Translations under genes and position numbers: made by a program | Part shown: positions 3,995 through 15,995 of the stretch, in pieces | How positions within the stretch are numbered: position 1 is the stretch's first letter | Layout of the letters: the number at the start of each line of letters is the position of its first letter | The notes under the pieces: generated by a model | What the model was told of the DNA's origin: nothing | Database searches by the model: none | Seen by the model: only the letters and a program-made list of their open reading frames with translations | Assembly: GCF_000730165.1 (NCBI RefSeq) | Contig: NZ_CP022110.1 | Location: 2,177,501-2,241,500 of the forward strand | Direction: 5' to 3' | Source of the DNA: Nitrospirillum viridazoti CBAmc | GTDB lineage: Bacteria > Pseudomonadota > Alphaproteobacteria > Azospirillales > Azospirillaceae | Length of the DNA stretch: 64,000 nt

Positions 3995-4401
3995 TTTGCG
4001 GCGGAAAAAAGGCGAATTTGCATTTGTGCTCAAGTAGATACGCATGGCTTCACGTAACATTCGGTAACAAAGAGTGATTTGAAGCCTGGCGCCTACGTTG
4101 TTACTTAGGCAGCGTGACGTTCGGCTTTGGATGCACCGCAACACGCGGTTAAACACCGGGGCCAGCGTTACAGCCCAAGGCGGCAAGGCGGCAGGGTCGT
4201 TCATTCGACCGCAAGCCGGACCGGTCGCCGGACGTGGATGGTAGGCTCGCACATCGCGATTGAGGTGGTCACGGTTGGACCGCCCCGCCCGCCTCCCCCC
4301 GTCCGAACGCAAAGTCCCCAGTGGATATAACCCTGGGGCGTACGTGATGCAGGAAAGGCCCCGGCCCGACCGTATCACGGCCGAATAAGGAAGTTGGAAC
4401 C
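3995..4401 (+). other. Long lpxC upstream region without genes
   Basis: About 400 bases between the ftsZ terminator and lpxC. No convincing ORF was seen; the short frames here lack ribosome sites and have no recognisable homology. It must hold the lpxC promoter and leader. A TATAAC box lies about 75 bases before the start codon, but no clear -35 partner was found. AAGGAAG at about 4387 is the likely lpxC ribosome-binding site. Confidence 0.4.
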
Positions 4402-5355
4402 GTGTACGCCGATCGTGAACCCATCACCACCGCCCGCCAGCAGACGCTGAAGGCCCCCATCAATTGCACCGGCGTCGGCCTGCATTCCGGCCTGCCCGTT
4501 GCCATGACGATGCGCCCGGCGCCGGTGAACACCGGTATCGTCTTCCGCCGCGTGGATCTGTTGCGCGGTGGCGCCACTGAAGCCCAGGCGGCCGTGCCGG
4601 CCCGTTGGGATGCGGTGGTTGATACCCGCCTGTGCACGGTGATCGCCAACGCCACCGGCGCCACGGTGGGCACGGTTGAGCATGTCATGTCCGCCCTGCG
4701 CGGCTGTGGCATCGACAACCTGTTCATCGACCTGGACGGGGCCGAGGTTCCCATCATGGACGGCAGCGCCGCCCCCTTCGTTTTCCTGATCGAGTGCGCC
4801 GGCATCACCCAGCAGGAAGCCGCGCGCCGCGTCATCCGCGTGCTGCGCCCCGTGTCGGTGGTGGAGGGCGAGAAGGTCGCCACCCTGACCCCGGCCTCCG
4901 GCTCCAGCTTCGCGTTCGAGATCGACTTCGCCAGCGCCGCCGTCCGCCGCCAGGAAGGGTTCGTCCGCCTGGAAGCCGACAGCTTCAAGGATGAGGTGGC
5001 CGAGGCCCGCACCTTCGGCTTCCTGCAGGAAGTGGACATGCTGCGCCGTGCCGGCCTGGCCCGGGGCGGCTCCATGGACAACGCCATCGTCATCGATGGC
5101 GACCGCGTCCTGAACGAGGGCGGCCTGCGCTTCGATGACGAGTTCGTGCGCCACAAGATCCTGGACGCCGTGGGCGACCTGTACATGGCGGGCTACGCCA
5201 TCGTCGGCCACTACTCCGGCATCCGCTCCGGCCACGCGCTGAACAACAAGCTGCTGCACGCCCTGTTCGCCGACGCCTCCGCCTATGAGATCGTCGAGGA
5301 GATGGACGCCGCCTTCGTCCCGGCCTGGGAGCAGCCGCTGCTGGCCACCGCCTGA
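4402..5355 (+). CDS. lpxC: UDP-3-O-acyl-N-acetylglucosamine deacetylase LpxC
   Basis: Zinc deacetylase that performs the committed step of lipid A synthesis in the cytoplasm. 317 residues, normal for the family. The metal ligands are visible: His94 in HVMSALRG, His251 and Asp255 in [10 protein letters not shown]; the catalytic His278 lies in SGHALNN. The N-terminus [16 protein letters not shown] is the classic LpxC opening. Translation starts at GTG 4402 after AAGGAAG. Position after ftsZ is typical, but the gene is separated from it by a terminator and a long leader. Confidence 0.97.
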
Positions 5356-5450
5356 TACTCGAATACCCGACACTGAATAGACGAACCACGCCGCCGTCCG
5401 TCCGGCCAACAAGCACCAAAAACCAAACACAACACCAATCACTGAGCCTC

Positions 5451-5497
5451 AAACGAAAAGGCCTTCTTCCCCATCCGGGAAGAAGGCCTTTTCCGTT
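5451..5497. terminator. Bidirectional terminator T1, lpxC and micropeptide unit 1
   Basis: Long stem GCCTTCTTCCC / GGGAAGAAGGC (5461-5471 with 5477-5487), with A-rich sequence before and T-rich sequence after, so it works in both directions. It sits between the convergent lpxC and unit 1. Nearly the same sequence recurs at 6664, 8112 and 8799. Confidence 0.88.
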
Positions 5498-5547
5498 TCC
5501 GGCCGGGAAACCCGGCCGTCAGGTCTGGTCTGGACAGTATCGGCGCC

Positions 5548-5679
5548 TCACAGCATGGCGTTGATGCACAGAGCCATGACGGCGGCGACGGACAGCATGC
5601 CGGCGGCCTCGACGAAAGCGGACAGGCGCGCGGCAAAACCGGTGGTGACGGCGGTTTCGGTGGCGGTAACGGTGGTCAT
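5548..5679 (-). CDS. Micropeptide P2, unit 1 (second gene of the pair)
   Basis: Unrecognised 43-residue peptide, too short for routine gene calling. The Thr/Ala-rich N-terminus (MTTVTATETA) leads into FAARLSAFVEAAGML and a hydrophobic segment from about residue 27, ending MALCINAML. The start has a good ribosome site (AAGGGG, 8 bases upstream). Support for a real gene comes from conservation of length, frame and C-terminus in four tandem copies, while the N-terminus varies. It follows P1 after 77 bases in the same transcript and is followed by terminator T1. A membrane-inserted peptide is inferred; no function is known. Confidence 0.8.
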   Translation of the reverse strand: MTTVTATETAVTTGFAARLSAFVEAAGMLSVAAVMALCINAML

Positions 5680-5756
5680 GATCTTAATCCCCTTCTGAAT
5701 GATGATCGCTGGTCGGGCGATGGTCGTTGATGGAAGCGCGTGAGGTCCGGGTCGGC

Positions 5757-5894
5757 TTACAGCATGGCGTTGATGCTGGCGGCGATCAGCAGGGCCACGG
5801 CCATCATGGCCACGCCCTCGACAACGGCGGTGTCGGGCAACACCTTGAAAAAGCGGAAGGAAGCGGTGCGGCTGGCAGCGGCGAAGGCGGTCAT
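5757..5894 (-). CDS. Micropeptide P1, unit 1 (first gene of the pair)
   Basis: Unrecognised 45-residue peptide. The N-terminal half holds the invariant basic-aromatic motif RTASFRFFK (residues 9-17) followed by LPDT. Residues 25-45 are hydrophobic and end in AASINAML, the same tail as the partner peptide. The start ATG at 5894 is preceded by GGAGAGAG. It is the first gene behind a sigma-54-type promoter about 45 bases upstream. The basic amphipathic front and hydrophobic C-terminus suggest a small inner-membrane protein, possibly signal-anchor-like. A bacteriocin-like, holin-like or complex-subunit role cannot be told apart from sequence. Confidence 0.82.
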   Translation of the reverse strand: MTAFAAASRTASFRFFKVLPDTAVVEGVAMMAVALLIAASINAML

Positions 5895-5937
5895 TTCTCT
5901 CTCCATCAGGATCGTTGGTCGGTGATGTCCCTATAAG

Positions 5938-5953
5938 AGCAAGGGCCGTGCCA
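5938..5953 (-). promoter_or_regulatory. Sigma-54 promoter of unit 1
   Basis: Read on the minus strand: TGGCACGGCCCTTGCT, preceded by T. It matches the -24 (TGGCACG) and -12 (TTGCW) elements with exact spacing. The predicted start of transcription is near 5927, giving a leader of about 30 bases to P1. Confidence 0.88.
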
Positions 5954-6086
5954 ACTCATCAAAATGGCGGAAATCCTGGAACCTAGGCCTTCACGCACCG
6001 CCGCCGCGCCATCACGCCGCCAGAATTCGGCCGCAATGGCGATTTAGTATTAAAATAGGCGATTTTATACTGCGCGACAGCGACAC

Positions 6087-6127
6087 TGTCCGTTTGCGTA
6101 CATCACCCACCTGTCCGCTGACGTACG
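6087..6127 (-). promoter_or_regulatory. Upstream activator sites of unit 1 (TGT-N10-ACA)
   Basis: Main site TGTCCGTTTGCGTACA at 6087-6102, an inverted repeat with one mismatch. It lies 134 bases beyond the -24 end of the promoter. A weaker half-matching copy, TGTCCGCTGACGTACG, begins at 6112. The distance, symmetry and recurrence suggest a binding site for a sigma-54 enhancer-binding protein. Confidence 0.75.
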
Positions 6128-6199
6128 GTTTAAGGCGGGGCGCCGAGCGCTGTCACGGGTAAGCTGCTTGATCCCAAAGGCCGCGCGGGAACCGCCGTG

Positions 6200-6658
6200 A
6201 TGAATACCAAGCGCTCCATGATCAAGCTCACCATTCCCACCGACCCGACCGACGGGCACGGCGTCGCCATGGAGCATGTCTGGGCCACGCCTTTGGGTGG
6301 CGATCTCTACGTCCTGGAGAACTCCCCGGGCAGCGCCTATGGCCTGAGCTATCAGGACATCGTCGTCGCTCAGCCGGAGGATGGCCTGCTGCTATTCCGG
6401 CGCGTCCATGCCCGCCAGGGCCATTCCACCTATCGCATTCGCCTGGCCCAGAAGACGACGATTCAGGACTTCCTGCGTCATTGGCAAGCCATCCAGGCGC
6501 TGGGCTGCACCTTTGAAGGCGAGGTCGGTGGGCGGGGATACATCGTCGATATTCCCCCAGCCACAGATGCGCATGCCGCCTACGCCCTGATGATGGAGGG
6601 CGAGGACCGGGGCATCTGGATTTTTGAAGAAGCTCACTACGGCGGCCCGGATACGTAA
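6200..6658 (+). CDS. DUF4265 domain-containing protein
   Basis: 152-residue soluble protein of the DUF4265 family; biochemical function is unknown. Family features seen are the N-terminal EHVWATPLGGDLYVLENSP, the AYGLSYQDIVVAQ block and the central HARQGHSTYRI motif. ATG 6200 is preferred over the adjacent GTG at 6197; MIKLTIP a few codons later is a third choice. The gene lies alone on the plus strand between micropeptide units 1 and 2. It starts about 70 bases beyond the unit 1 activator sites and is convergent with unit 2, sharing terminator T2. Whether it belongs to the micropeptide system or was caught in the duplication is unclear. Confidence 0.8.
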   Translation: MNTKRSMIKLTIPTDPTDGHGVAMEHVWATPLGGDLYVLENSPGSAYGLSYQDIVVAQPEDGLLLFRRVHARQGHSTYRIRLAQKTTIQDFLRHWQAIQALGCTFEGEVGGRGYIVDIPPATDAHAAYALMMEGEDRGIWIFEEAHYGGPDT

Positions 6659-6663
6659 TGTCC

Positions 6664-6709
6664 CAAAAGCGAAAGGCCCTCTTCCCACGGGAAGAAGGCC
6701 TTTTCGTTT
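6664..6709. terminator. Bidirectional terminator T2
   Basis: Hairpin of the same family as T1: AAAGGCCCTCTTCCC paired with GGGAAGAAGGCCTTTT, one internal mismatch. It sits six bases after the DUF4265 gene and ends unit 2 from the other side. Confidence 0.85.
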
Positions 6710-6767
6710 ATGCCGGAACCCGGCCGGCGCGCCCCATCACGGCAGGGCGCGCAGATGATCTCAGGCA

Positions 6768-6905
6768 TCACAGCATGGCGTTGATGCACAGGGCCATGAC
6801 GGCGGCGACGGACAGCATGCCGGCAGCCTCGACGAAGGCGGACAGGCGAGCGGCAAAACCGGTGGTGACGGTAGCGGCGGTCTGGTTGGCGGTGACGGTG
6901 GTCAT
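6768..6905 (-). CDS. Micropeptide P2, unit 2
   Basis: 45-residue copy of P2. From TTGFAARLSAF to the end INAML it is identical to the unit 1 copy. The N-terminus differs by two inserted residues and a few substitutions (MTTVTANQTAATV). An AAGGGG ribosome site precedes the ATG at 6905. The near identity of units 1 and 2, including the promoter, points to a recent duplication. Confidence 0.8.
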   Translation of the reverse strand: MTTVTANQTAATVTTGFAARLSAFVEAAGMLSVAAVMALCINAML

Positions 6906-6984
6906 GATCTTAATCCCCTTGGGTATGATGATCGCTGGTCGGGCGATGGTCGTTGATGGGAAGCGCGTGAGGTTTGGGTTCGGC

Positions 6985-7122
6985 TTACAGCATGGCGTTG
7001 ATGCTGGCGGCGATCAGCAGGGCCACGGCCATCATGGCCACGCCCTCGACGGCGGCGGTGTCGGGCAACACCTTGAAAAAGCGGAAGGAAGCGGTGCGGC
7101 TGGAAGCGGCGAAGGCGGTCAT
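6985..7122 (-). CDS. Micropeptide P1, unit 2
   Basis: 45-residue copy of P1 that differs from unit 1 at two positions only (Ala7 to Ser, Val24 to Ala). RTASFRFFK and the AASINAML tail are kept. The start ATG at 7122 is preceded by GGAGAAAG. It is the first gene of its transcript, with a 79-base gap to P2. Confidence 0.82.
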   Translation of the reverse strand: MTAFAASSRTASFRFFKVLPDTAAVEGVAMMAVALLIAASINAML

Positions 7123-7165
7123 TTCTTTCTCCATCAGGATCGTTGGTCGGTGATGTCCCTATAAG

Positions 7166-7181
7166 AGCAAGGGCCGTGCCA
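7166..7181 (-). promoter_or_regulatory. Sigma-54 promoter of unit 2
   Basis: Minus-strand TGGCACGGCCCTTGCT, identical to the unit 1 promoter and placed at the same distance from the P1 start codon. Confidence 0.88.
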
Positions 7182-7315
7182 ACTCATCAAAATGGCGGAA
7201 ATCCTGGGGTGCGGGCCTTCACGCACCACCGCCGCGCCATCACACCACCAGAATTTGGCCGTAATGACGATTTAGTGTTTAAATAGGTGATTCCATCTTG
7301 TGCGTTGGCGGACAC

Positions 7316-7355
7316 TGTCCATTTCCGGACACCCGCAACCGTCCACTCCCGGACA
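7316..7355 (-). promoter_or_regulatory. Upstream activator sites of unit 2
   Basis: Main site TGTCCATTTCCGGACA at 7316-7331, 135 bases beyond the -24 end. A second near-copy, CGTCCACTCCCGGACA, lies at 7340-7355, 24 bases further on. The same 24-base spacing of two sites is seen in unit 4. Confidence 0.75.
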
Positions 7356-7459
7356 CCCACGCCCCTGGCCAATTGGAAGCCGGCCGCCCTACCAACAGGC
7401 GGGCGGGCGAGGAAAAGAACAGGCGACATGTATAGCCCAACAACACGGAACGCCAAGAA

Positions 7460-8111
7460 TCGGGTAGGGAGAGGCCTCACGGCCTCCCCCTCCCACACCA
7501 CCGTACGTACGGTTCCGTATACGGCGGTTCCTGTCATCCTCTGCGTTGTGGTCCCCAGTGCCTGCCGCCCTATAAGCGCCCAGCCTTACCTCGCGGATTC
7601 CGTCCGCTACTTCCAGCTTCAGGCCCCCTTGCGGGGCATCTGCTCAGGGCGAGCAGAAAAGCGGCTCTGCTTCGCATGACAGGTTCAGCCCTTCACCGAC
7701 CCGGTACGCCGGCTACTACGGCTTCTGCTGACTTCTGCCACCCCATCCCGGCGCCTCGCGACGCCGGTAGCACACCTGTCGCCAGAGGCAGGACGGCAGA
7801 CCTCCCAGGGTAAGACGCGTGACCTCCATGCCATATACCCGCCGCATCTACGCCCGCACCCTCCGGGTGATATCGGGCTTCGGGGGCCTTTGCACCCTCG
7901 CCCGGATGCGGACGCCTCATATGCGGTTCCTGTTCGTCAGGCCGGCACTTTGCTTACAGCTTCCTCCAGACACCACCTCGCGGTGACGCCCTTGCTGTTC
8001 GGCTAACGGTTCCCATCACCAGGGCCCGTAGAGGACTTCAACCTCCAAGTCACAAGCCGGTTACCAACCCGGCTCTCGGTGCTTACGCACCTCGCGCCAT
8101 GCCTGGCGCAC
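7460..8111 (-). mobile_element. ORF-less group II intron (class C-like)
   Basis: Read on the minus strand, the element begins GTGCGCC (8111), the GUGYG start of group II introns. It runs through the conserved-looking 5' intron region that contains GAACCGTTAGC and a GGAAGCTG segment. Near the 3' end is a 34-35 base domain V hairpin (7497-7531, with CCGTACGTACGG read on the plus strand), then a domain VI hairpin (about 7466-7495). The exact 3' end is uncertain by a few bases. No reverse transcriptase is present: only a short frame at 7693-7920 remains, so the maturase part is deleted. The intron begins directly after the terminator of unit 3 in the same orientation, the insertion habit of class C introns. 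It could move only with a maturase supplied in trans. Confidence 0.75.
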
Positions 8112-8157
8112 AAAGCGAAAGGCCCTCTTCCCGTCTGGAAAGAAGGCCTTTTCGATT
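8112..8157. terminator. Terminator T3 of unit 3, abutting the intron
   Basis: Hairpin of the T1 family (AAAGGCCCTCTTCCC / GGAAAGAAGGCCTTTT). On the minus strand its T-tract CGCTTT is followed at once by the intron's GTGCG. The sequence diverges from the other three terminator copies exactly at this junction. Confidence 0.8.
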
Positions 8158-8216
8158 GCGCCGGAACCCCGGCCGGCGCGCCCATCACAGCGGGGCGCGC
8201 GTTCCAATCAGCGATG

Positions 8217-8360
8217 TCACAGCATGGCGTTGATGCACAGGGCCATGGCACCGGCGACGGCCAGCATGCCGGCAGCCTCGACCAGGCTGGTCAGGCGGGC
8301 CATCAGGCCGGCGGTGGCGGTGCGGCGGGTGGCGGGCCGGCTGGCGGTAACGGTGGTCAT
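8217..8360 (-). CDS. Micropeptide P2, unit 3
   Basis: 47-residue, more divergent P2 copy. The N-terminus is richer in Arg (SRPATRRTATAG). The VEAAGML core and the MALCINAML end are kept. The ATG at 8360 follows AAGGGG. Gap to P1 is 64 bases. Retention of the hydrophobic end despite a changed front suggests selection on the C-terminal half. Confidence 0.78.
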   Translation of the reverse strand: MTTVTASRPATRRTATAGLMARLTSLVEAAGMLAVAGAMALCINAML

Positions 8361-8424
8361 GATTGCTATCCCCTTCTCTTATGGACGGCCGCTGGTCAGA
8401 CGGCAGCGATTGAATGGTGCCGGC

Positions 8425-8562
8425 TTAGAGCATGGCATTGATGCTGGCGGCGATCAGCAGGGCCACAGCCGTCATGGCGACGGTCTCGATGGCGTCAATG
8501 CTGGGCAAGCCCTTGAAGAAGCGGAAAGAAGCGGTGCGGCTGGCGGTGGCGTAGGCGGTCAT
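8425..8562 (-). CDS. Micropeptide P1, unit 3
   Basis: 45-residue P1 copy. RTASFRFFK and LLIAASINAML are unchanged, while the middle differs (GLPSIDAIETVAMT). The ATG at 8562 is chosen over the in-frame ATG at 8568 because GGAG then stands at a normal distance and gives the same length as the other copies. Confidence 0.8.
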   Translation of the reverse strand: MTAYATASRTASFRFFKGLPSIDAIETVAMTAVALLIAASINAML

Positions 8563-8605
8563 TGTCATCTCCATCAGGATCGGTGTTTGGCGATGTCCCC
8601 ATAAG

Positions 8606-8621
8606 AGCAAGGGGCGTGCCA
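8606..8621 (-). promoter_or_regulatory. Sigma-54 promoter of unit 3
   Basis: Minus-strand TGGCACGCCCCTTGCT, preceded by T: full match to the -24/-12 consensus. Only the non-conserved spacer differs from units 1 and 2. Confidence 0.88.
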
Positions 8622-8755
8622 ATACATATGAATCTATGGATTTCAATGACTTATGCTGGAACTCATTGGCCAATGACGGCGTCATCGCCATTAAATGGCG
8701 GCATTTGCAATTTATTGCCAAAATACGCGACACCACTTTGTTCGCCACCGAACAC

Positions 8756-8771
8756 TGTTCATTTACGGACA
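8756..8771 (-). promoter_or_regulatory. Upstream activator site of unit 3
   Basis: TGTTCATTTACGGACA, 135 bases beyond the -24 end of the promoter. It keeps TGT-N10-ACA, but the inner palindrome has two mismatches. No convincing second site follows; terminator T4 begins 28 bases further on. Confidence 0.7.
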
Positions 8772-8798
8772 CTCATTACGATCCGCACCAGCGACCCC

Positions 8799-8845
8799 AA
8801 AAGCGAAAGGCCCTCTTCCCCGCGCGGGAAGAAGGCCTTTTCGGT
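8799..8845. terminator. Terminator T4 of unit 4
   Basis: Hairpin of the T1 family with stem CTTCCCCGCG / CGCGGGAAG region and flanking A and T tracts. It separates unit 4 from the activator site of unit 3. Confidence 0.82.
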
Positions 8846-8915
8846 TGTGCCGGCGATCCGGCCAGCGCCGCCCCCTTTGTGACGCACGGGGCGGCGCGCG
8901 TAGTCCTGCCAGGCT

Positions 8916-9074
8916 TTACAGCATGGCGTTGATGCACAGCGCGATGACGGCGGCGACGGCCAGCATACCGGCGGTTTCGACCACGGCGGCGGCACGGGGC
9001 AGGATGGCGGCGAGGCGGTCGGCCAGGCTGGCGGTCTCAGTGCTGCGGGCGGCGGTGACGGTCCGGGTGGTCAT
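8916..9074 (-). CDS. Micropeptide P2, unit 4
   Basis: 52-residue P2 copy, the longest and most divergent. The N-terminus carries an extra stretch (DRLAAILPRAAAVV), but the last 20 residues still read AGMLAVAAVIALCINAML-like. ATG at 9074 follows AAGGGA. It lies 33 bases after P1, closer than in the other units. Confidence 0.75.
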   Translation of the reverse strand: MTTRTVTAARSTETASLADRLAAILPRAAAVVETAGMLAVAAVIALCINAML

Positions 9075-9107
9075 GATTTTCGTATCCCTTCGTGCGATAT
9101 GGTCGGT

Positions 9108-9245
9108 TCAAAGCATCGTGTTGACGCTGACGCTGATCACCAGCGCCACGGCCAGCATGGCAACGGTTTCAACCATCTCGGTGCTGGGCAGATACTTGAA
9201 GAAGCGGAAGGAAGCGGTGCGGGGCGCGGCATTGAAGGACGACAT
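9108..9245 (-). CDS. Micropeptide P1, unit 4
   Basis: 45-residue P1 copy. The RTASFRFFK motif is intact. The tail has drifted to SVSVNTML, the only unit without INAML on P1. ATG 9245 is preceded by GGAG at 7 bases; an upstream ATG gives MEIKMSS but would overlap that ribosome site. Confidence 0.77.
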   Translation of the reverse strand: MSSFNAAPRTASFRFFKYLPSTEMVETVAMLAVALVISVSVNTML

Positions 9246-9288
9246 CTTGATCTCCATCGGAGGGTGGTTGGCTGATGCCTGCCTTATC

Positions 9289-9304
9289 AGCAAGGGGTGT
9301 GCCA
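9289..9304 (-). promoter_or_regulatory. Sigma-54 promoter of unit 4
   Basis: Minus-strand TGGCACACCCCTTGCT; one departure from the full consensus (A for G after the -24 box). Spacing and distance to P1 match the other units. Confidence 0.85.
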
Positions 9305-9385
9305 ACCGCCGAAAGCCGCGGAATTCGGTCGTTCTTGGTTAAGGGTTTATAGGTCGTTGACCAGGCGGCGCCACTAATTGGCCGC

Positions 9386-9405
9386 ATTCGCCACATTTGG
9401 CGAAT
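9386..9405. promoter_or_regulatory. Perfect palindrome between activator site and promoter of unit 4
   Basis: ATTCGCCA-CATT-TGGCGAAT, 8-bp perfect arms. It lies between the -24 box and the activator sites, where a DNA-bending protein or repressor could act. Units 1-3 have AT-richer but less symmetric sequence here. Confidence 0.4.
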
Positions 9406-9438
9406 ATGACTACCATTTCAGCGTCCGGAATCGCCCAC

Positions 9439-9478
9439 TGTCCGTTTGCGGACAGGCGGAACCGTTCATCGCCGGACA
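9439..9478 (-). promoter_or_regulatory. Upstream activator sites of unit 4
   Basis: Main site TGTCCGTTTGCGGACA (9439-9454) is a perfect palindrome with a 4-base spacer, 135 bases beyond the -24 end. A second site, CGTTCATCGCCGGACA, lies at 9463-9478, again 24 bases away. This is the best version of the motif in the window. Confidence 0.78.
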
Positions 9479-9498
9479 GCGGGCCGCGGCGACAGCCG

Positions 9499-10422
9499 TC
9501 AGCCGCCGAACCATACCTTGGTGTCAAGATAGCGCGACGCCAGGAAACGATAGAGGCGGCCAATCTCCAGCATCGCCTCATCCTTGGCCGGGTCCAGGGT
9601 CTTCCAGCGCTGGGGAAGATCCTCCCAGGCCAGGGTTTCGAAATGCAGGTTGTCCCGATGCCGGCGCAGCATGGCGACCGTGCCCTCGAACTGCTTCAGC
9701 GCCGCCACGGCCTCGCCGGTGCCGGCCTCAACCTCATCGAACCAGGCGCGGTACTTTTCCACCGGCACCTTCAGCAGCGACTGGATGCGGCGCAACTGGT
9801 GGTCCAGCTCGCGATCGCCGCGCGCCAGCTTCTGCATCTCGCGCAGCTTGCGGCCGATGTCGAACACCGGCTTGAAATACTCCCGCAGCGCCTCCAGGAA
9901 GGCCAACTCGTTGGCCAGCACCTCCACCCTGTCCACCACTTCCTGCTTGCGCTCGGCGGCGACGCCGACCAGGGCGGCAATCTCGGCCGCCTGCTCGCGC
10001 ATGCGGCGCTTGGCCTCCTCGCTCTCATCCAGGGCGGCGGTCGCGTCGGCGCGGGCGCCGGCGATGGCCTTCAGCAGCGAGCCGCCGATCTTGATGAAGG
10101 CCAGGTCGCGGTGGCGGGACTCGATGGTCCAGGAGGCCGTTCCGTCCACGATTTCCGACGGGATGCGATCCCCATTACGGATGATGCGCACGAAGCGCAG
10201 GCTCTGCGCGATCATGCCCAGCAGTTGGCCGTCACCGCTTTCCGGAGAGATGGTGAACATCTGCGCCACCTGCCGCAGGGGAATGGCGCCCCGGGCATCG
10301 CCCAGGTCGATCTGCAGCACCGGCTCGCCATGGCTGAGCGTGAAAAAGGAATTGGGCAAGCACAACGCCGGATGCGCGAAGTTGAATTCCGTGATGCTGA
10401 GCTTGGCCGTCTTGTCGAGCAT
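9499..10422 (-). CDS. Conserved-looking coiled-coil protein of unknown function
   Basis: 307-residue soluble protein that I do not recognise. The first 130 residues look like a folded beta-rich domain (MLDKTAKLSITEFNFAHPA, later FVRIIRNGDRIPSEIVDG). Residues 145-250 are charged and helical with heptad-like spacing, suggesting a coiled coil. The end is Trp/Tyr-rich. No signal peptide or membrane segment is seen. The start at 10422 gives a plausible N-terminus, but its ribosome site is weak and the frame is open upstream to 10488. It lies between the micropeptide block and bamD, divergent from bamD. Confidence 0.7.
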   Translation of the reverse strand: MLDKTAKLSITEFNFAHPALCLPNSFFTLSHGEPVLQIDLGDARGAIPLRQVAQMFTISPESGDGQLLGMIAQSLRFVRIIRNGDRIPSEIVDGTASWTIESRHRDLAFIKIGGSLLKAIAGARADATAALDESEEAKRRMREQAAEIAALVGVAAERKQEVVDRVEVLANELAFLEALREYFKPVFDIGRKLREMQKLARGDRELDHQLRRIQSLLKVPVEKYRAWFDEVEAGTGEAVAALKQFEGTVAMLRRHRDNLHFETLAWEDLPQRWKTLDPAKDEAMLEIGRLYRFLASRYLDTKVWFGG

Positions 10423-10706
10423 GGCGGTGTATAGAGTGTCCTGGAAAGGCGACTTAATAAAGTATCTAGCGGTTGCCCTGCCGTACATCCACCCCGAACG
10501 CGGTCGGGTGTCGATGCAAAAATGCCCCGCCAGCCCCCATCCTATACACCCGTGTAGGATAGGCGCGCTGGGGGCCGAGGTTCCCGGCGGGGCCGGTTTT
10601 AGAGAAATTTCGCTGTCAGGCCGACAATGTGCCGCTTGGCGACGGGCGGTTGACCCGTGCTATAACACGCCGTCGCGCATCCCGCCGCCTATTCCGCTCC
10701 GAGAAG
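10423..10706. other. Divergent intergenic region with a nested inverted repeat
   Basis: No gene seen. The outer arms GCCCCGCC (10524-10531) and GGCGGGGC (10586-10593) enclose ATCCTATACACCCGTGTAGGAT, itself nearly self-complementary (written here as one site of 22 bases broken by ta and cc bulges: arms ATCCTA and TAGGAT). The region must contain the bamD promoter; TATAAC at about 10661 is a possible -10 box without a clear -35. Confidence 0.45.
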
Positions 10707-11750
10707 ATGCCCTTGTCCTTCCCTCGCATTGCCTTGTCGCCCCGTCGCCTCCGCCGCCTGGTCCCGCTCGCCGCCCCCCTGGCGCTGTTCGCGGTCGCGG
10801 CTTGCTCCAGCGATGAGAAGGAGGCGCCCTACATCGAACGCCCGGTGGAGCAGATCTACTCCGAAGCCGGCAACGCCATCGATCGCGGCGAATACCAGAA
10901 GGCGGCCCTGCTGTTCGGCGCCGTGGAACAGCAGCACCCCTATTCCACCTGGGCCATGCGCGCCGAGCTGATGGCCGCCTACGCCTATTACCAGGCCAAC
11001 AAGTATGAAGAGGCCATCGGCTCGCTGGACCGCTTCATCAGCCTGCACCCCGGCAACCCCAACGTCGCCTACGCCTATTACCTGAAGGGCCTCTGCTATT
11101 ATGAGCAGATCTCCGACGTGCGGCGCGACCAGACCCCGACCGTGCAGTCGCTGAAGGCCCTGGAAGAGGTGATCCGCCGCTTCCCCACCAGCCCCTACGC
11201 CCGCGACGCCAAGCTGAAGATCGACCTGACCCGCGACCATCTGGCGGGTAAGGAGATGGACATCGGGCGCTATTACCAGAGCGTGGGCCTGAACCTGGCC
11301 GCCATGAAGCGTTTCCGCCAGGTGGTGGATCAGTACCAGAGCACCAGCCACGTGCCGGAGGCCCTGCACCGCCTGGTGGAGGTCTACCTGTCGCTGGGCA
11401 TGCTGGATGAGGCGCGCAAGGCCGCCGCCGTGCTGGGCTACAACTACCCGGGCAGCGACTGGTACCAGAACACCTACGACCTGGTGAAGGACCTGCCCAA
11501 ACCGCGCGTCATCCCTGTCAACCTGACGGCTCAGCCCGCCGACACGCCGACGGCCACCCCGGCGGCCGGCCCCCGCGCCGGCGCGCCGGTCGCGGCCCCC
11601 GAGGGCCAGACGGCACCGGCTGGGGACAAGCCGGCCGACCTGAAGGCGCCGGACCAGAAGACGACGGACCAGAAGGCCGACGACAAGGGCGAGAAGCCCC
11701 GCCAGGAAAGCAAGGACCGTGGCTTCTTGGGTTGGCTTTTCGGCGATTAA
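10707..11750 (+). CDS. bamD: Outer membrane assembly lipoprotein BamD
   Basis: TPR lipoprotein of the BAM complex that folds outer-membrane proteins. 347 residues. A lipoprotein signal peptide ends in LFAVAAC, with Cys33 as the lipidation site. TPR-type helices follow (PVEQIYSEAGNAIDRGEYQKA, then YAYYQANKYEEAI, LKGLCYYEQI), as in the YfiO/ComL family. The C-terminal 85 residues are an Ala/Pro/Lys-rich extension ending in DRGFLGWLFGD, longer than in E. coli. ATG 10707 is chosen because it gives the normal signal peptide; an upstream start at 10629 would add an Arg-rich leader. recN and ligA follow on the same strand. Confidence 0.95.
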   Translation: MPLSFPRIALSPRRLRRLVPLAAPLALFAVAACSSDEKEAPYIERPVEQIYSEAGNAIDRGEYQKAALLFGAVEQQHPYSTWAMRAELMAAYAYYQANKYEEAIGSLDRFISLHPGNPNVAYAYYLKGLCYYEQISDVRRDQTPTVQSLKALEEVIRRFPTSPYARDAKLKIDLTRDHLAGKEMDIGRYYQSVGLNLAAMKRFRQVVDQYQSTSHVPEALHRLVEVYLSLGMLDEARKAAAVLGYNYPGSDWYQNTYDLVKDLPKPRVIPVNLTAQPADTPTATPAAGPRAGAPVAAPEGQTAPAGDKPADLKAPDQKTTDQKADDKGEKPRQESKDRGFLGWLFGD

Positions 11751-15979: not shown

Positions 15980-15995
15980 TGGCACACCTCTTGCG
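15980..15995 (+). promoter_or_regulatory. Sigma-54-type promoter of the GIN-domain gene
   Basis: TGGCACACCTCTTGCG keeps the -24 GG and -12 GC at the right distance. It lies about 110 bases before the start codon at 16106. No TGT-N10-ACA site was found upstream, so its activator would differ from that of the micropeptide units. Confidence 0.65.

Follow-up and report, generated by a model that had tools for sequence, protein, structure and literature searches.

Background

Stress-induced small proteins of the membrane are a common find, and for many of them partner, signal and regulator have yet to be identified. In the Psp and Lia systems small inner-membrane proteins are made on demand, and the Psp response is sigma-54-dependent. 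YohP, a protein of 27 amino acids (aa) from E. coli with a link to the stringent response, makes the membrane less fluid and lowers its potential (PMC12719787). We report the analysis of a 64,000-nucleotide stretch (hereafter the window; contig NZ_CP022110.1, positions 2,177,501 to 2,241,500) of Nitrospirillum viridazoti CBAmc, whose genome comprises 7.38 Mb in four contigs. Between 5.45 and 9.48 kb of the window lie four tandem cassettes, each a sigma-54 promoter followed by two small open reading frames (ORFs) named P1 and P2. Judged from their sequences, the encoded peptides appear to form a new family, alike in kind to the stress-induced small membrane proteins; their genes sit in amplified sigma-54 cassettes with apparent ties to a two-component system that is itself linked to exporters.

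Set beside Psp and Lia, the peptides would likewise be small inner-membrane proteins made on demand, given their predicted location; they differ by their upstream site and by cassettes that lack PspA, and there is no detectable homology. Two operons of the window genome that read as pspA (L038 and L054) also have sigma-54 promoters and a first ORF of 48-56 aa ending in a hydrophobic stretch. The peptide profile described below has nine matches in this genome, the small ORFs of the pspA operons not among them, and a site common to cassettes and psp promoters was rejected, there being no TGT-N10-ACA within 300 nt upstream of L038 or L054. YohP is likewise a membrane protein of under about 50 aa with no enzyme domain (PMC12719787). 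Compared by description, it differs in its 27 residues, and here the peptides come from arrayed sigma-54 cassettes, each of which encodes one, two or three homologues. On the side of the exporters, the proposed regulon shares with the darobactin exporter DarBCD and with ADOP permeases an HlyD adaptor, an ATPase and MacB/FtsX permeases, and the Dar and ADOP families are the best-named relatives of the exporter set in one related genome (G055); it differs from DarBCD in that this set falls under every Dar cut-off and the micropeptide cassettes have a different genomic location. The best NCBIfam model for the candidate activator is the PEP-CTERM response regulator PrsR (TIGR02915), at 360 bits, short of the curated cut-off of 502.6 bits.

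Results and discussion

Four cassettes and their parts

The initial annotation described four minus-strand units, and all four are present, each made up of one or more palindromes, a sigma-54 promoter, P1, P2 and a hairpin. The parts are listed below in window coordinates; ORFs include the stop codon.

9439-9454, minus strand: cassette 1 palindrome TGTCCGCAAACGGACA, 12/12 half-site letters, starting 150 nt before the promoter
9289-9304, minus strand: cassette 1 sigma-54 promoter TGGCACACCCCTTGCT (strict motif 9290-9304)
9108-9245, minus strand: cassette 1 P1 ORF, 45 aa
8916-9074, minus strand: cassette 1 P2 ORF, 52 aa
8795-8845, minus strand: cassette 1 terminator-like hairpin, -30.3 kcal/mol, z -3.5
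8739-8771, minus strand: cassette 2 palindromes, 8756-8771 TGTCCGTAAATGAACA and 8739-8754 TGTTCGGTGGCGAACA
8606-8621, minus strand: cassette 2 sigma-54 promoter TGGCACGCCCCTTGCT (strict motif 8607-8621)
8425-8562, minus strand: cassette 2 P1 ORF, 45 aa
8217-8360, minus strand: cassette 2 P2 ORF, 47 aa
8115-8160, minus strand: cassette 2 terminator-like hairpin, -25.5 kcal/mol, z -4.7
7299-7355, minus strand: cassette 3 palindromes, 7340-7355, 7316-7331 and 7299-7314
7166-7181, minus strand: cassette 3 sigma-54 promoter TGGCACGGCCCTTGCT (strict motif 7167-7181)
6985-7122, minus strand: cassette 3 P1 ORF, 45 aa, the copy modelled with AlphaFold
6768-6905, minus strand: cassette 3 P2 ORF, 45 aa
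6665-6710, minus strand: cassette 3 terminator-like hairpin, -25.2 kcal/mol, z -5.4
6087-6127, minus strand: cassette 4 palindromes, 6112-6127 CGTACGTCAGCGGACA and 6087-6102 TGTACGCAAACGGACA
5938-5953, minus strand: cassette 4 sigma-54 promoter TGGCACGGCCCTTGCT (strict motif 5939-5953)
5757-5894, minus strand: cassette 4 P1 ORF, 45 aa
5548-5679, minus strand: cassette 4 P2 ORF, 43 aa
5450-5500, minus strand: cassette 4 terminator-like hairpin, -34.6 kcal/mol, z -7.2

The sizes first given for the peptides hold, P1 having 45 aa in all four copies and P2 52, 47, 45 and 43 aa, and P1 starts 59 nt past the beginning of TGGCAC in each unit. The strict promoter pattern, TGGCACN5TTGC, occurs at 25 sites in the whole 7.38-Mb genome, against 12 for a reversed control pattern. 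A palindrome does precede every promoter, as had been claimed, and starts 149-150 nt before it, but the four are not equally good (12, 10, 11 and 11 of 12 letters) and cassettes 2-4 have extra ones. Likewise, of the supposed near-identical terminators, a strong hairpin well conserved within the window is found at each unit end; a consensus terminator scan listed none of the four (it gave two other sites, against 3.7 expected by chance), for which reason we call them terminator-like. From this arrangement, the small ORFs of each cassette are taken to be co-transcribed. Cassettes 3 and 4 are nearly identical (96% and 95%) and are therefore likely to reflect a recent duplication or conversion.

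One family of peptides

P1 and P2 align over their C-terminal halves, and a profile built from P1 alone detects P2 copies in six genomes (E 9.6e-6 to 0.008). On this evidence the eight window ORFs are, at the level of sequence comparison, one homologous family, and two unrelated peptides per cassette can be rejected. Nor is the pair a rule: each window unit does have two ORFs, as do most cassettes of the window's genus (g1), but cassettes elsewhere hold one (genera g6 and g7, some g11), two or three homologous peptides (some g11, and one cassette in G060).

The loci read contain 97 peptide copies (47 in g1 and 50 elsewhere), representing 87 distinct sequences of mostly 41-55 aa. Their hallmark is a glutamate 20 residues from the C-terminus (84 of 87; in the other three at -21), followed by a single uncharged helix at the extreme C-terminus: the last 19 residues are without charge in every distinct peptide, and position -4 is Asn or His in 83. 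The motif RTASFRFFK and the INAML tail, put forward originally as the signature, belong to one genus only, and even in the window the tail is not common to all copies, as cassette 1 P1 ends in VNTML. The description of the products as membrane micropeptides agrees with the hydrophobic C-terminal helix of P1 and P2, from which a membrane location is predicted. In the AlphaFold model of one P1 (cassette 3) this helix spans residues 22-44, in a block with pLDDT 91-97, and a further helix at 3-17 is of low confidence.

Selection on the open frames, also claimed at the outset, is upheld by strong profile matches that are free of stops in a search that reads through stops, and by pooled pN/pS values of 0.59 for P1 and, over the 25 C-terminal codons of P2, 0.61. 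Within P1 the ratio is 0.75 for codons 2-8, 0.24 for codons 9-20 and 0.71 for codons 21-45. Judged by these ratios P1 and P2 are under purifying selection, though only moderately so except in the RTASFRFFK stretch. Ahead of 91 of the 97 copies stands a ribosome-site motif, loosely defined and scored without a control. The cassette ORFs look like real conserved genes.

As first supposed, the peptides match no recognised family in the libraries searched: four window peptides searched against Pfam and NCBIfam, and 21 family members searched against PHROGs and Pfam, gave nothing above cut-off (best E 0.021). Among the literature matches listed, judged by title or the start of the abstract, no paper describes these peptides and none pairs a TGTCC-type site with exporters.

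Distribution among related genomes

Relatives in other genera were first spotted through the combined palindrome and promoter pattern, which matches in 22 of the 82 genomes of the bacterial family, with no match of the reversed control pattern in any. Ten of the 22 have peptide cassettes at the matches and 12 belong to a genus (g3) that we take to be Azospirillum. Three of the 12 g3 matches were read and rejected as relatives, two preceding an EtfB/FixA-like gene and one looking like chance.

The family is present in 20 of the 82 genomes, that of the window among them, and, tentatively, in one more. At E < 1e-6 a 21-member mixed profile matches all seven g1 genomes, one of g6, one of g7 and all 11 of g11; at E ≤ 0.001 a 45-member profile matches 21 genomes, adding G076 (g12) at 1.1e-4. 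A profile of 42 g1 peptides and no others was run against 2448 ORFs from loci of other genera. Of the 51 member ORFs it finds 31 at E ≤ 1e-3; the number rises to 42 if E ≤ 0.01 is allowed and to 50 at E ≤ 1, where one non-member also enters (E 0.87). In a 385-genome sample of the class, three carriers from the bacterial family matched strongly and no convincing carrier was found outside it; four weak matches there (E 3.4e-4 to 7.3e-3) are taken as chance. No relatives were found in viral contigs searched with the P1 profile, or in plasmid records searched with one g11 peptide; a phage origin is rejected, there being no viral match.

A candidate activator that travels with the palindrome

The palindrome of the cassettes has a consensus of about TGTYCRN4YGRACA. 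The window genome encodes 13 strong sigma-54 activator domains, and among the loci of roughly 3.5 kb around them a palindrome of at least 11 letters is found only at L141, just upstream of the activator gene, C2:1412400. The protein has response-regulator, sigma-54 AAA+ and Fis-type helix-turn-helix domains, and the adjoining gene encodes a histidine kinase whose N-terminus we interpret as a pair of hydrophobic segments joined by a short loop. Orthologues of the L141 activator occur, at E ≤ 1e-20, in 17 of the 82 genomes; all 17 are among the 21 carriers and none among the 61 others. The palindrome TGTACGN4CGGACA lies just upstream of the activator gene in 16 of the 17.

Loss of the two goes together as well. 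G071 and G075, both 100% complete, keep the peptides and the full sigma-54 promoter, and have neither a TGT-N10-ACA site nor a detected orthologue; the tentative G076, again with no orthologue found, keeps the sigma-54 promoter and has no palindrome. Over the 21 carriers a simple Fisher test gives p 0.003, a value that counts G076 and ignores relatedness. From co-occurrence, co-loss and the placement of the sites, we consider it probable that the cassettes are controlled, through their palindrome, by this one two-component sigma-54 activator.

Exporter genes with similar sites

Family searches cover the activator and its kinase, three G055 proteins (adaptor, ATPase, first permease), one L130 permease, DUF4265 and small ORFs; other gene names used here (nifA, nifH, pspA, HlyD, lpxC) are readings of sequence. 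In three of the six activator loci read, exporter genes with like sites lie near the activator. At L220 (G055) the activator is divergent to a palindrome, a sigma-54 site and genes for HlyD, an ATPase and three permeases; at L221 (G054) it is divergent to a permease-like gene, beyond which come palindromes, a sigma-54 site and HlyD-, ATPase- and permease-like genes; and at L223 (G066) a few kilobases separate the activator from a palindrome, a promoter and an HlyD-like gene. The window genome itself has three exporter loci preceded by such a site and by a sigma-54 match of lower quality, at 9-10 of 12 letters:

L132: HlyD/ATPase-like operon
L130: tandem permeases of 799 and 804 aa
L131: permease of about 800 aa

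Pfam recognises HlyD, ABC ATPase and MacB_PCD/FtsX domains in the G055 proteins and MacB_PCD/FtsX in the first L130 permease, and the G055 adaptor is above the NCBIfam cut-off of RND_mfp. In a 398-genome sample of the phylum, one genome besides that of the window, G727, has such a site; it stands 79 nt before a sigma-54 match and precedes an HlyD-like ORF with no micropeptide in between. The low-nitrogen or low-oxygen signal suggested in the initial annotation is thus not what the palindrome points to; it tracks instead a two-component activator linked to HlyD/MacB-type exporters.

Such a link invites the idea that the peptides are cargo, which the co-regulated HlyD/MacB-type ABC transporters would export as precursors or as signals. 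In favour, the G055 adaptor and ATPase have DarC (205 bits) and DarD (278 bits) as their best-scoring NCBIfam models, and in four genomes an HlyD gene is likewise preceded by a small ORF (50-55 aa). The G055 permease, at 117 bits to DarB, scores behind ADOP (326 bits, itself below cut-off), every Dar score falls under its cut-off (450, 375 and 700), the cassettes lie elsewhere in the genome than the exporter genes, and the conserved part of the peptides is an uncharged C-terminal helix, as expected of a membrane resident. We regard export of the peptides as unlikely.

The small ORFs before the HlyD-like genes share a VNPDxWL motif and may represent another family of micropeptides; searches with two of the four gave no Pfam or NCBIfam match.

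L132:9514-9672, VNPDxWL small ORF
L220:1997-2164, VNPDxWL small ORF
L221:10117-10281, VNPDxWL small ORF
L223:11785-11937, VNPDxWL small ORF

The site and NifA

The main regulatory rival to the L141 activator is NifA, whose consensus is TGT-N10-ACA; the palindrome would then be a NifA site and the peptides would serve nitrogen-fixing cells. An exact TGT-N10-ACA lies upstream of 44 of the 47 cassette promoters read, which fits that consensus and tells against our assignment. Genes that we read as nifA and nifH are furthermore present in the window genome, and the same pattern matched a promoter in g3 at L100 and L103, where a TGTCCGGTAGSCGACA site and a sigma-54 promoter stand upstream of an EtfB/FixA-like gene that is presumably a NifA target. 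The cassette sites are nevertheless more constrained than that consensus. Among 42 distinct sites picked by the TGT-N10-ACA rule alone, C5 and G12 are invariant, position 4 is a pyrimidine in 41, position 6 a purine in 42, position 11 a pyrimidine in 42 and position 13 a purine in 36, whereas upstream of the nifH-like gene of the window genome (L042) stand two TGT-N10-ACA sites that do not fit TGTYCRN4YGRACA. Moreover, peptides and activator are both absent from all 45 g3 genomes, and like sites are found with exporter genes and with the gene for a different activator. On these sequence grounds NifA control is disfavoured, and we hold it to be quite unlikely.

A second conserved element, TATTTTCCAGAAT-like, lies about 20-50 nt before the promoter in g11 cassettes (L205-L209, L213-L218) and also at L199 and L200, and its 7-mers are found in 17-23 of the 47 promoters. 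At L199 and L200, where the palindrome is absent, it takes a variant form, and many g1 cassettes have a CCAGGATTTCCGCC-like form.

Proposed working and remaining alternatives

The explanation we favour, at roughly even chances, is that the products are tail-anchored membrane micropeptides and outputs of an exporter-linked, envelope-stress sigma-54 two-component regulon, in which signal, binding and membrane role are all predicted. The histidine kinase, with two membrane helices and a very short loop at its N-terminus, would sense a disturbance of the membrane or envelope and, to judge by gene pairing and domains, phosphorylate the adjoining NtrC-type activator. The activator is predicted to bind TGTYCRN4YGRACA-like sites upstream of the cassettes, the exporter genes and its own gene. 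Sigma-54 RNA polymerase would then fire several cassettes together and so yield one, two or three related peptides in large amounts; their production in bulk is plausible from copy number. The peptides would insert in the inner membrane, their short N-terminal segment probably cytoplasmic, and alter its properties or partner envelope proteins, and the exporters would expel the offending compound. By analogy, the peptides would act in the way of the small membrane proteins of the Psp or Lia responses.

Several observations weigh against this account. As regards the family, the P1-only profile has no matches outside g1 (7 of 82 genomes matched), the G076 peptide reaches only E 0.15 with the g1-only profile, for which reason its membership is tentative, and pN/pS values near 0.6 are only moderately below 1. 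As regards the regulator, the activator gene at L171 has no upstream palindrome, one promoter of the activator-bearing G065 (L212) likewise lacks it, and in G072 the palindrome is present and the activator was not found; this genome is 93% complete in 860 contigs, and the absence is perhaps an assembly gap. In many genomes no more than 47 candidates were scored in the search for the activator, so that an absence could be a miss, and the losses of activator and palindrome may amount to one or two events only, since G071 and G075 look like close relatives. As regards the exporters, no exporter gene adjoins the activator at L222 and L224, L219 is ambiguous in this respect, and the site stands 130-174 nt from the promoter in the cassettes against about 60-104 nt at the exporters.

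A speculative and rather improbable extension of the envelope-stress explanation treats the arrays as a gene-dosage device for a multi-component micropeptide complex. The homologous tail-anchored peptides made together from each cassette would assemble through the Glu/Asn-bracketed helix into a structure of the inner membrane and guard the envelope when an exporter-linked intramembrane sensor fires, as a functional counterpart of Psp and Lia that originated independently in this bacterial family.

Three other functions for the peptides may be considered. They could be toxin-like and, in the manner of TisB or YohP, lower the membrane potential and slow growth under stress, a role that their size, single helix and multiple tandem copies would fit. 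A consensus scan of both strands of 5300-9600, in itself a weak test, found no sigma-70-like promoter for an antisense antitoxin; control is by an activated sigma-54 promoter, there is no Pfam or NCBIfam toxin match, and a glutamate at the start of the helix seems unlike a generic pore peptide. We think a toxin-like role decidedly unlikely. Paired single-helix peptides in several tandem copies also recall the alpha/beta antennae of light harvesting, in which paired small helices form an ordered membrane assembly. Light-harvesting alpha/beta peptides need a conserved pigment-binding His in the helix, and in 50 of the 62 non-redundant peptides the residue at -4 is Asn, in nine it is His, and no other His is conserved; there is no Pfam match either. 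A light-harvesting pair is accordingly rejected, and an ordered assembly of this kind is highly improbable. That the transcripts act as RNAs, with the short ORFs incidental, is scarcely credible: conserved hairpins and an only moderate pN/pS would suit it, but stop-free profile matches, ribosome-site motifs (loosely defined as they are) and a one-genus protein profile that recognises other genera argue for translation, and an Rfam scan of 4000-11000 finds no family apart from a group II intron.

Neighbouring features

The array is flanked by lpxC (4402-5355) and a 329-aa ORF (9499-10488), and both flanks are retained in all six other g1 genomes. The group II intron is without an ORF and lies between cassettes 2 and 3, with three Rfam matches within 7459-7987 (minus strand), shortly past the cassette 2 hairpin. 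It probably extends over about 7460-8090, a GTGCG near 8090 being, on our assumption of the consensus, its start. Eight relative loci scanned with Rfam gave no families at gathering scores, the group II intron included. Between cassettes 3 and 4, and convergent with cassette 3, is a plus-strand DUF4265 gene (6197-6658), near full-length in L092 and represented in L093 by a 23-residue fragment match.

Elsewhere, G062 (L095) and G063 (L098) carry an additional cassette on another contig, and in the third cassette of G064 (L099:7200-8280) an insertion, containing what we take for an IS630-like transposase, separates the sigma-54 promoter from P1. A further strict sigma-54 site at 15980-15994 of the window (plus strand) lies upstream of a 270-aa ORF with a signal-peptide-like start.

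Conclusion

One undescribed family of micropeptides here comes with a predicted activator, a DNA site and a few probably co-regulated exporters. In the cassettes, micropeptide genes have been multiplied behind sigma-54 promoters, and loci of this sort may escape automated annotation. Nitrospirillum is plant-associated and can be grown in the laboratory, and natural comparison species keep the peptides without the activator or the site, which would make the purpose of the peptides directly testable.

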